Below, in pieces: positions 234 to 49,863 of a stretch of DNA of 50,980 nt. The notes under the pieces are model-generated. The model did no database searches, was not told where the DNA came from, and saw only the letters and a program-made list of their open reading frames with translations. The translations under genes and the position numbers were made by a program. This DNA is from Deltaproteobacteria bacterium. Its GTDB lineage: Bacteria; Desulfobacterota; Dissulfuribacteria; Dissulfuribacterales; DYLC01. Numbering within the stretch: the first letter of the stretch is position 1; each line of letters opens with the position of its first letter. Where the stretch lies: assembly GCA_028695735.1 (NCBI GenBank), contig JAQVIJ010000001.1, forward strand, positions 1-50,980. The letters run 5' to 3'.

Positions 234-791
234 TTAAATCTCCTGGGGCGGCAGCGGTGAAGCATTTGTTCCATGCGTCGCATAACTGCCCTCCATGGCA
301 GGATGCGCCGCCGGCGCCCTCCTGGCGCCTATTCCACAAACACTCCACCACTGCCGCCCTTCTCGTCCCTGCGGAACTCCATATTCATAACGAGTGCCCT
401 ATCCATTCCTACTGCAATCCCACAAATAACGGATTGACCTGCTGGAATAATAAACCTACCCTTCTGATAATAAAAATCGCTGGCTAAACCGGCACTTCTG
501 CCAATAAAAAACGTGGAATTGTTTTTTTACCCTCTGTTAACCAAAGTTCGAAGGATATGTGGTGGTTTGAAGCGTCGTTTACGATTGAGCGTGGGGTTCA
601 GGAGGGGTGTTAACCAAAGTTCAAAGGGTCTATGTCTTTTTTAAGCGACTTCTGAGGTAAGATGTGGAGGTGGGGAGGGGCGATGAGCAGCCGGTGTTTG
701 TGAAATAGGCGCCACGAGGGCGCCGGCCCCACATTACCGCCATGGAGGGCGGTTATGTGGGGCATGGAACAAATGCCGGCTGCCCTCGCCC
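198..791 (+). mobile_element. Structured interspersed element, copy 1 (full, about 590 bp)
   Basis: A leader (about 198-246: GGACAGTCACATT, then CTTTTTTAATTAAATC) precedes arm A (247-358), a spacer (359-677) and arm B (678-791) in inverted orientation. Each arm folds as an outer stem enclosing two hairpins. Arm A has an outer stem GGCGGCAG...CTGCCGCC, a first hairpin GCGTCGCAT...ATGCGCCGC with loop CTCCAT (one mismatch in this copy), and a second hairpin GGCGCC/GGCGCC. Arm B has the same shape with different stems (for example CCCCACAT/ATGTGGGG). The spacer holds a 74-base-spaced direct repeat GTTAACCAAAGTTC at 536 and 610. No conserved reading frame spans the copies. It fills the gene-free stretch 234-795. 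Confidence 0.8.
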
Positions 792-18331: not shown

Positions 18332-18764
18332 GGGACGCAGAGACGGCAGCGGGGGGCATTTGTTCCATGCGGCGCATAACTGCCCTCCATGGCAGTGATG
18401 CGCCGTCGGCGCCCTCCATGGCGCCTATTCCACAAACACCCCCCGCTGCCGCCTCTGCGTCCCTGCGGAACCCCATGTCTATAATGGGTCCTCTATCCCT
18501 TTTTCTTGTAATCCCCTGAACGGAGGATTAACCGACGCTTTTGATAATAAAAATCGTAGAATTGGCTTTCACCTTCCTGTTAACTACAGTTCAAAAGAAA
18601 GGCCATGTGTTTTTTTAAACGACTTCTCATGTGGTGCATGGTATCCTGGAGGGGCGAGGGTAGCCGGTGTTTGTGGAATAGGCGCCACGAGGGCGCCGGC
18701 CCCACATTACCGCCATGGAGGGCGGTTATGTGGGGCATGAAACAAATACCGGCTGCCCTCGCCC
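18332..18764 (+). mobile_element. Structured interspersed element, copy 2 (short form, divergent arm A)
   Basis: Arm A (18332-18463) keeps the family's constant strands and hairpins, but its outer stem has another sequence: GGGACGCAGAG...CTCTGCGTCCC continuing to CGGCAGCGGGGG/CCCCCGCTGCCG. Arm B (18652-18764) is the usual inverted type with stem GGGCGAGGG...CCTCGCCC. The spacer is short and has one GTTAAC-type unit, giving 433 bases in all against about 545 in the long form. The usual GGACAG leader is absent. It fills the stretch between tRNA-His and dusB. After it, 18791-18818 resembles 28056-28083. Confidence 0.75.
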
Positions 18765-25695: not shown

Positions 25696-26244
25696 AAAGG
25701 ACAAAAGGACAGATACATTTCTGAACAACTTTTTTAATTAAATCTCTTGGAAAATGAAAACAAAAACAAAAGGACAGACACATTCCTGAACAACTTTTTT
25801 AATTAAATATCTTGGGGCGGCAGCGGTGAAGCATTTGTTCCATGCGGCGCATAACTGCCATCCTTGGCAGGATGCGCCGCCGGCGCCCTCCTGGCGCCTA
25901 TTCCACAAACACTTCACCACTGCCGCCCTTTTCATCCCTGCGGAACTCCATGTCCATCACGGATGCCCTATCCATTCCTCATGTAATTCCACTCGTATTG
26001 ACCTATTTTTATAATGAGCGGCATTTCTGCCAATAAAAAACGTGGAATTGGCCTTACCCTCTGTTAACCAAAGTTCAAAGGGTCTATGTCTTTTTTAAGC
26101 GGCTTCTGAGGTAGAATGTGGAGGTGGGGAAGGGCGAGGGCAGCCGGTGTTTGTGGAATAGGCGCCAGGAGGGCGCCGGCCCCACATCACCGCCATGGAG
26201 GGCGGTTATGTGGGGTATGAAACAAATATCGGCTGCCCTCGCCC
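25696..26244 (+). mobile_element. Structured element, copy 3 (short form, doubled leader)
   Basis: Two leaders in tandem (25696-25751 and about 25769-25815, each GGACAGA.ACATT then CTTTTTTAATTAAAT) precede arm A (25816-25927). A short spacer with a single GTTAACCAAAGTTC and arm B (26132-26244) follow. Arm A to arm B spans 429 bases. The first hairpin loop is altered but still paired. This is the left end of a tandem array of the family. Confidence 0.78.
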
Positions 26245-26381
26245 GGATATTGAATTATCATCCTGTATTAAAACTGAAAAATCGACAAGCACGATGAGAC
26301 AGAAGGGAAAAACAGAACAAGGGCAGATACGTTCCTGAATAACATTTGAATGAATACAAAAAAGACATCATTTTTTGGGGG

Positions 26382-26925
26382 GGCGGCAGCGGTGAAGCAT
26401 TTGTTCCATGCGGCGCATAACTGCCCTCCATGGCAGGATGCGCCGCCGGCGCCCTCCATGGCGCCTATTCCACAAACACTCCACCACTGCCGCCCTTCTC
26501 GCCCCTGCGGAACCCCATGCCCAGAACGAATGGCCTATCCATTCCTACTGCAATCCCACAAATAACGAATTGACCTGCTGGAATAATGAACCTAGCCTTC
26601 TGATAATAAAAATCGCTGGCTGAACCGGCATTTCTGCCAATAAAAAACGTGGAATTGGTTTTTTACCCTCTGTTAACCAAAGTTCGAAGGATATACGGTG
26701 TGTTGAAGCGTTGTTTATGATTGGGCGTGGGTTGCAGGAAGGGTGTTAACCAAAGTTCAAAGGGTCTATGTCTTTTTTAAGCGGCTTCTGATGTAGGATG
26801 TGGAGGTGGGGAGGGCGAGGGCAGCCGGTGTTTGTGGAATAGGCGCCACGAGGGCGCCGGCCCCACATCTCCGCCATGGAGGGCGGTTATGTGGGGCATG
26901 GAACAAATATCGGCTGCCATCGCCC
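26382..26925 (+). mobile_element. Structured element, copy 4 (long form)
   Basis: Arm A 26382-26494, spacer with two GTTAACCAAAGTTC units, arm B 26813-26925 in inverted orientation. The second hairpin has loop CTCCAT in arm A here. It is preceded by a linker (about 26245-26381) that recurs before copies 5 and 6, carrying GGGCAGATACGTTCCTGAAT and an A/T-rich tail. Confidence 0.8.
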
Positions 26926-27064
26926 AGACATTGAATTATCACCATGTATCAAAACTGGAAAAAACAACAAGCACAATGAGACAGAAGGGAAAAACAGAAC
27001 AAGGGCAGATACGTTCCTGAATAACATTTTTAATGAATACAAAAAAACATCATTTTTTTTTGGG

Positions 27065-27618
27065 GGCGGCAGCGGTGAAGCATTTGTTCCATGCGGCGCA
27101 TAACTGCCATCCCTGGCAGGATGCGCCGCCAGCGCCCTCGTGGCGCCTATTTCACAAACACTTCACCACTGCCGCCCCTTCTCGGCCCTGCGGAACTCTA
27201 TGTCCAGAACGGATGGCCTATCCATTCCTACTGCAATCCCACTGATAACGAATTGACCTGCTGGAATAATGAGCCGGCACTGCTGCCAATAAAAATCGCT
27301 GAAAATCGCTGGCTAAACCGGCACTTCTGCCAATAAAAAAAGTGGAATTGGCCTTTACCCTCTTTTAACCAAAGTTCGAAGGATATACGGTGTTTTGAAG
27401 CGTCGTTTACGGTTGGGCGTGGAGGTGGGGAGGGGTGTTAACCAAAGTTCAAAGGGTCTATGTCTTTTTTAAGCGACTTCTGATGTAGGATGTGGAGGTG
27501 GGGAGGGGCGAGGGTAGCCGGTGTTTGTGGAATAGGCGCCACGAGGGCGCCGGCCCCACATCACCGCCAAGGAGGGCGGTTATGTGGGGCATGGAACAAA
27601 TGCCGGCTGCCCTCGCCC
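27065..27618 (+). mobile_element. Structured element, copy 5 (long form)
   Basis: Arm A 27065-27176, spacer with a short duplication (AAAATCGCTG twice near 27291-27310) and two GTTAACC or TTTAACC units, arm B 27506-27618. Linker and arms closely match copy 4, at a period of about 690 bases. Confidence 0.8.
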
Positions 27619-27756
27619 AGACATTGAATTATCACCATGTATCAAAACTGGAAAAAACAACAAGCACGATGAGACAGAAGGGAAAAACAGAACAAGGGCA
27701 GATACGTTCCTAAATAACATTTTTAATGAATACAAAAAAGACATCATTTTTTTGGG

Positions 27757-28030
27757 GGCGGCAGCGGTGAAGCATTTGTTCCATGCGGCGCATAACTGCC
27801 CTCCATGGCAGGATGCGCCGCCGGCGCCCTCCTGGCGCCTATTTCACAAACACTTCACCACTGCCGCCCCTTCTCGGCCCTGCGGAACTCCATGTCCATC
27901 ACGGATGCCCTATCCATTCCTCATGTAATTCCACTCGTATTGACCTATTTTTATAATGAGCGGCACTTCTGCCAATAAAAAATGTGAAATTGGTCTTTTA
28001 CCCTCATGTTAACCAAAGTTCAAAGATATA
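27757..28030 (+). mobile_element. Structured element, copy 6 (left half only)
   Basis: Arm A (27757-27868) and the start of the spacer are present; the spacer is of the copy 3 type (CATGTCCATCACGGATGCC, then ACTCGTATTGACC). The match ends soon after GTTAACCAAAGTTCAAAG at about 28008-28025, and no arm B follows. The remaining 28031-28180, up to the oligosaccharyltransferase gene, carries a 28-base match to the flank of copy 2 (28056-28083). Confidence 0.72.
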
Positions 28031-49113: not shown

Positions 49114-49227
49114 ACAAAAGGACAGACATATTTTTTGAGTAACTTTTTTAATTAAATATCTTCAGCACAATAGTGGGGCGGCAGCGGTGAAGCATTTGTT
49201 CCATGCGTCGCATAACTGCCCTCCATC
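49114..49227 (+). mobile_element. Broken structured element: leader and partial arm A
   Basis: A leader (GGACAGACATATT, CTTTTTTAATTAAATATC) is followed by CAGCACAATAGT, then arm A from 49177. The arm stops inside the first hairpin loop (CTCCAT at 49222-49227), where A-rich DNA and a new leader begin. CAGTACAATAGT at 49098-49109, at the end of rpsT, matches 49163-49174 at 11 of 12 bases. Confidence 0.65.
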
Positions 49228-49245
49228 AAAACAACAAAAAACAAC

Positions 49246-49838
49246 AAAAGGACAGTCACATTCCTGAACAACTTTTTTAATTAAATCTCTTGGGGGCGGC
49301 AGCGGTGAAGCATTTGTTCCATGCGGCGCATAACTGCCCTCCTTGGCAGGATGCGCCGCCGGCGCCCTCCTGGCGCCTATTTCACAAACACTCCACCACT
49401 GCCGCCCTCCTCGCCCCTGCAAAACTCCATATTCATAACGAGTGCCCTATCCATTCCTACTGCAATCCCACTGATAACGAATTGACCTGCTGGAATAATG
49501 AGCTGGTATTTCTGCCAATAAAAATCGCTGGCTAAACCGGCACTTCTGCCAATAAAAAAGTGGAATTGGCCTTTACCCGCTGTTCACCAAAGTGCAAAGG
49601 GTATGTGCTGGTTTGAAGTGTCGTTTACGGTTGGACGTGGGGTCTTCAGAAAGGGTGTTAAGCAAAGTTCAGGGGATCTATGCCTTTTTTAAGCGACTTC
49701 TGATGTAGAATGTGGAGGTGGTGAAGGGCGATGAGCAGCCGGTGTTTGTGGAATAGGCGCCACGAGGGCGCCGGCCCCACATCTCCGCCAAGAAGGGCGG
49801 TTATGTGGGGCATGAAACAAATGCCGACTGCCCTCGCC
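49246..49838 (+). mobile_element. Structured interspersed element, copy 7 (long form)
   Basis: Leader at about 49246-49294, arm A 49295-49406, spacer with GTTCACC and GTTAAGC units in place of GTTAACC, and inverted arm B 49726-49838. Stem changes in arm B (for example GGGCGATGAGCAGCC against GACTGCCCTCGCC) weaken the outer stem slightly. It appears to have entered the loop of the broken element to its left. Confidence 0.78.
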
Positions 49839-49863
49839 TAAAAACAAAAACATGTTATTAGAA

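Follow-up and report, generated by a model that had tools for sequence, protein, structure and literature searches.

The window analysed here is a stretch of 50,980 nucleotides from a Deltaproteobacteria bacterium, whose genome comprises 2.22 Mb in nine contigs, and it contains intergenic repeats of two types, A arms and inverted B arms. A sequence-only reading of the window had located seven full A arms and six inverted B arms, and all of them were present at the positions claimed. The arms are listed below together with a truncated eighth A arm; the strand given in every row is the proposed RNA strand, which carries GGA in the hairpin loops and is hereafter called the GGA strand.

247..359, minus strand: A arm
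678..791, plus strand: B arm
18332..18464, minus strand: A arm, stem extended outward, ATGGAG in the two hairpin loops of the GGA strand
18651..18764, plus strand: B arm, upstream of a dusB-like gene
25816..25928, minus strand: A arm
26131..26244, plus strand: B arm
26382..26495, minus strand: A arm, ATGGAG in both loops
26812..26925, plus strand: B arm
27065..27177, minus strand: A arm
27505..27618, plus strand: B arm
27757..27869, minus strand: A arm
about 49177..49234, minus strand: truncated eighth A arm, cut within the loop of hairpin 1, joining strand at 49193, in the flank of the arm at 49285
49295..49407, minus strand: A arm
49726..49839, plus strand: B arm, loop 1 AAGAAG

The usual layout in the window's genome is an inward-facing A..B pair of about 430-580 bp, occurring singly or in arrays such as the A B A B A B A array at 25816-27869; the arms sit between genes. 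Since the arms are mostly found in inward-facing pairs, their GGA strands point outward on both sides. When one unit was used as a BLAST query, 213 matches were obtained in the window's genome; 89 arms were found across the 21 stretches fetched from it, and a covariance model of the arm gave at least 94 matches. These copy numbers are based on searches and fetched stretches rather than on the complete genome sequence, and such an abundance is far beyond chance. An exact 20-base pattern search in genome contigs returned no match, and neither did a search for the repeat in plasmids, phages and viral contigs.

Two further observations concern the flanks of the arms. The repeat AAAAGGACAGACACATTCCTGAACAACTTTTTTAATTAAATCTCTTGG lies outside many A arms (25700-25816 in the window, and other outer flanks) and is also present without an arm, so it may be another dispersed element. 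Truncated arms stop inside hairpin 1 and are often fused directly to the GGACAG repeat (49177-49234 in the window, and the outer flanks of the arms at C1:1566, C5:61473 and C4:81355 of the window's genome), as if hairpin-mediated deletions recurred at one place.

The arms also occur beyond the window's genome. Relatives were sought with the covariance model over 46 genomes of the order, probably Dissulfuribacterales, which gave at least 94 copies in genome G008, 36 in G015, one in G006 and one doubtful copy in G023; G008 and G015 belong to another family of the order. BLAST found no second copy in G006, and a scan of 395 genomes drawn from the phylum, run with stricter filters, revealed no further carrier. 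A DNA pattern search showed copies in the metagenome-assembled genome “Deltaproteobacteria bacterium UBA5754”, which agrees with G015, and one copy in a contig of 3 kb that is filed under Syntrophus aciditrophicus (L107). The weak match in G023 (L069:1501-1587, G023:C45; E 4e-4) has a different sequence with a similar outer stem and two hairpins, and it may represent another family of elements of this kind.

Each tested arm folds into the three-way junction that the sequence-only reading had described, an outer stem with two hairpins. The folding-energy z-scores of the window arms ranged from -10.8 to -12.4, with no shuffled sequence folding as well. The outer stem exists as described except that it does not end at the joining strands: TTTGT base-pairs with ACAAA, which makes the stem longer than first seen. 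The copy at 18332, which had been given an outer stem of its own, is an A arm with an outward extension of its stem.

The stems had also been said to covary, which proved to hold strongly between lineages and weakly inside a subfamily. In ten representatives covering three bacterial families as well as L107, both sides had changed in 13 of 30 pairs while 97.3% of the cells remained paired, compared with at most 52.6% in slid-partner controls. Within the A and B subfamilies, the fractions of paired outer-stem cells were 0.876 and 0.884, close to the shuffled values of 0.855 and 0.856, and the changes there were mainly one-sided and uncompensated. Watson-Crick pairing in the hairpin stems of the window's genome reached 97.5% of cells for A and 99.3% for B. 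Thus the structure persists from lineage to lineage, and within one genome the hairpins persist too, while single outer stems decay. Taken as a whole, the conserved three-way-junction fold is well supported.

On the strand complementary to the one considered earlier, the loops of hairpin 1 have the form A-N-GGA-N: ATGGAG, AAGGAG, AGGGAG and AGGGAT in the window's genome, and ATGGAC and ATGGAT in the relatives. Across 161 distinct arms, the six loop positions held A in 160, any nucleotide, G in 160, G in 158, A in 160 and any nucleotide, so that variation is almost wholly confined to positions 2 and 6, and the hairpin stems are nearly invariant. The ANGGAN pattern was found in loop 1 of 41 of 42 A arms and 41 of 43 B arms, and in 62 of 64 arms of G008, 16 of 17 of G015 and the single arm of G006; the B arm at 49726..49839 has lost the GGA from this loop. 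ANGGAN hexaloops are bound by RsmE, a homologue of CsrA, and their N nucleotides can vary (PMC7652899). In most arms of G008 and G015, loop 2 reads AYGGAY, with AYGGAY loops also in the G006 arm; in the window's genome, loop 2 retains GGA in only about 39% of the arms. A separate tally of loop-2 hexaloops took the motif as given and carries no weight here. Further GGA motifs lie in the joining strands (GTGGAATA, CATGGAAC) and are often decayed in the window's genome. If conversion acted inside a unit, its A and B arms should have loop alleles in common; such sharing did not exceed that in shuffles.

Pairing of the outer stem as RNA in the window's genome was 96% and 93% on the GGA strand and 87% and 88% on the opposite strand, because common mismatches turn into G-U pairs on the former. 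When two arms of the array were folded on both strands, the GGA-strand folds were better by 8-12 kcal/mol. In G008 neither strand is preferred, and for the single G006 copy the non-GGA strand gives the better fold; the strand evidence for an RNA of the GGA strand is supportive, not decisive.

A default Rfam scan of the window returned only a tRNA and missed TwoAYGGAY (RF01731), which surfaced only in permissive searches of short stretches and in a family-specific genome search. TwoAYGGAY was first described in 2010 (PMC2864571) and was later proposed to bind or sequester CsrA (PMC4333381). Against its gathering score of 43 bits, the permissive scan gave 47.6 bits for a short G008 stretch and 42.6 for a second G008 copy, and a genome-wide search of G008 placed one copy above the cut-off (44.3 bits). 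The copies of G015 and G006 remained below it, as did all nine matches in the window's genome (best 33 bits), eight of which are arms, and all eight lie on the GGA strand; 14 control genomes gave no match. Two other members of clan CL00106, RsmW and PrrB_RsmZ, also match weakly.

The likeness to TwoAYGGAY, reached by score in G008 copies, consists of a consistent strand, a long outer stem around two adjacent hairpins, a layout present in all carriers, and the A-Y-GGA-Y loops of most G008 and G015 arms and of the G006 arm. The arms differ from that family in being dispersed in about a hundred copies per genome and, in the relative, in lying on a transposing element; the window copies differ further in their scores below the threshold and in their loops, which are mostly ANGGAG. 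TwoAYGGAY itself was reported from the human gut, gamma-proteobacteria and Clostridiales (PMC2864571). The earlier statement that no named family has this architecture thus applies to the mobile, multi-copy form only, since the fold on the opposite strand resembles a named RNA family.

Evidence of mobility comes from G008, where the arms are embedded in elements of 173-177 bp bounded by the inverted ends CCTGAATCCGTGAG / CTCACGGATTCAGG. Exact ends occur 270 times in the G008 genome, the reversed control pattern not once, and perfect target duplications of 5-6 bp flank 31 of 50 complete elements, where chance would give far fewer than one. Inverted ends with short target duplications are the mark of a DDE-type transposase, and the G008 elements, which are MITEs, thus point to transposition of the DDE kind; mobility of this relative is well supported. 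For the units of the window's genome, neither ends nor a consistent target duplication could be made out, and we infer from their dispersal and their kinship with the G008 form that they have moved by the same route. Like the bacterial MITEs ERIC, Correia/NEMIS, RUP and RPE, the G008 elements measure 100-200 bp with inverted ends and target duplications, and the arms share with these families their noncoding nature, stable folds and intergenic location. The arms differ from them in a branched core that is kept across bacterial families while its stems are replaced, in duplications of 5-6 bp, in a parent IS that was not found, and, in the window's genome, in their paired inverted arrangement.

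As stated earlier for these repeats, no transposase lies inside the element. A DDE transposase matching the elements was not found among the families covered, PF01609 (DDE_Tnp_1) being absent, and no transposase was recognised among the open reading frames in a search for an autonomous parent between two distant TIR pairs. IS1380 was rejected as mobiliser, as G008 holds only decayed IS1380-type pieces with other ends. Some arms of the G008/G015 lineage (L075, L083, L084, L087, L098, L102) are enclosed by a further, outer pair of ends, GGATCCGTCAAAGTCA / TGACTTTGACGGATCC, which places these arms inside a second kind of element.

Given the mobility of the G008 relative, the arms might be a plain MITE family whose GGA loops were inherited without any RNA function and whose fold was kept for other causes, either because DNA hairpins are needed for movement or because replication-based correction maintains palindromes. 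The mostly one-sided decay of outer stems inside a subfamily is what copies without a local function would show, and a search for promoters and terminators in the array found none above chance level, which fits this reading as well. It leaves unexplained, however, why loop 1 varies only at the two N positions of ANGGAN next to near-invariant hairpin stems, and why one strand is preferred by an independent Rfam model from the CsrA-binding clan. In addition, one G008 element (L131:12645-12754) has both ends but carries a simple hairpin (CCTGTGCCGAGCACGGCAGACAGG) in place of the arm interior, and movement may thus not require the junction core. We consider a plain MITE family unlikely, though still to be taken seriously.

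The sequence-only reading had regarded the arms as large relatives of REP/REPIN elements with Y1-transposase-like hairpins, and had suggested a search for a Y1 HUH/RAYT gene flanked by arms. Inverted folding pairs and arrays at intergenic sites do make the arms look like BIMEs (PMC8266576), and Y1 genes are present in the window's genome, G008 and G015. However, none of the fetched Y1 loci, in the window's genome or its relatives, has an arm beside the gene, and no Y1 gene was found in G006. The arms are about 115 bp long and branched, unlike palindromes of 20-50 nt with a GTAG foot, and inspection of the listed arm flanks revealed no conserved GTAG or CGTC tetranucleotide. The target duplications and inverted ends in G008 run counter to the REP/REPIN type too, and the proposed relationship is not supported; movement of these elements by a Y1 (RAYT) transposase appears highly improbable. 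Elsewhere in the window's genome, a Y1-transposase-like (RAYT) domain lies in frame within a long open reading frame (L043:1501-1731, G000:C5:31478-31708), the rest of which presumably resembles a DUF1156-type protein; this is an in-frame insertion of a RAYT gene.

Very stable folds at intergenic sites could also act in cis on flanking transcripts as RNA processing or transcription-end elements, independently of CsrA, and such roles have been described for ERIC and NEMIS (PMC2229807). No clear bias in gene position or orientation was seen for the arms, which occupy tandem, convergent and divergent sites alike, and terminator-like tails in the array were not above chance. Considering also that such a role does not explain the ANGGAN loops, we regard it as improbable.

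The explanation we favour, at a probability of roughly 0.6, is that the arms belong to non-autonomous MITE-type elements which carry, as conserved cargo, a TwoAYGGAY-like RNA fold of the CsrA-binding type. Copies would be transcribed on the GGA strand, and the transcripts would fold into the three-way junction and offer their GGA loops to a CsrA dimer, which could clamp the two hairpins, with the GGA motifs of the joining strands contributing. The many copies would then act as a sponge that titrates CsrA, or would tether the protein to adjacent transcripts. Binding of CsrA by the arm RNA is predicted here from motif and fold. Each of the four carriers (the window's genome, G008, G015 and G006) has one csrA, which is necessary but does not discriminate, since CsrA is widespread in the order (32 of 46 genomes). 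By inspection, csrA of the window's genome follows flagellar genes and has a fliW-like gene as its neighbour. Some 2 kb past these two genes, on the downstream side, is an A B A B array (L055, G000:C8:277789-281180), a proximity that could be due to chance given the dozens of loci.

CsrB/CsrC and RsmX/Y/Z/W, which are thought to sequester CsrA/RsmA, resemble the arms in that GGA motifs recur in their hairpin loops and single strands. Unlike the arms, these RNAs are encoded by single-copy or few-copy genes with promoters and terminators of their own, and none of these signals was found here. Counted against CsrA binding are the scores of the window copies below 43 bits and the frequent loss of GGA from loop 2 and the joining strands. 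The very stable hairpins of the arms may also be unfavourable to CsrA, given the fact that most selected ligands had short stems (PMC7652899).

Within the part of the literature covered, we found no case of mobile elements spreading the sites of a global RNA regulator, and no demonstrated function of TwoAYGGAY beyond the computational proposal of CsrA binding (PMC4333381). The arms offer about a hundred natural variants per genome, share their core across bacterial families and confine their loop variation to the free positions of the CsrA site, which makes this proposal directly testable. We tentatively suggest, at somewhat less than even odds, that a transposable element has multiplied a candidate CsrA-binding RNA until a genome holds about a hundred copies, and that the host regulator is thereby titrated or re-targeted. 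If this is true, the outward-reading paired arms would yield GGA-bearing RNA from whichever side is transcribed, and mobile elements would be able to scatter sites for a global RNA regulator across a genome.
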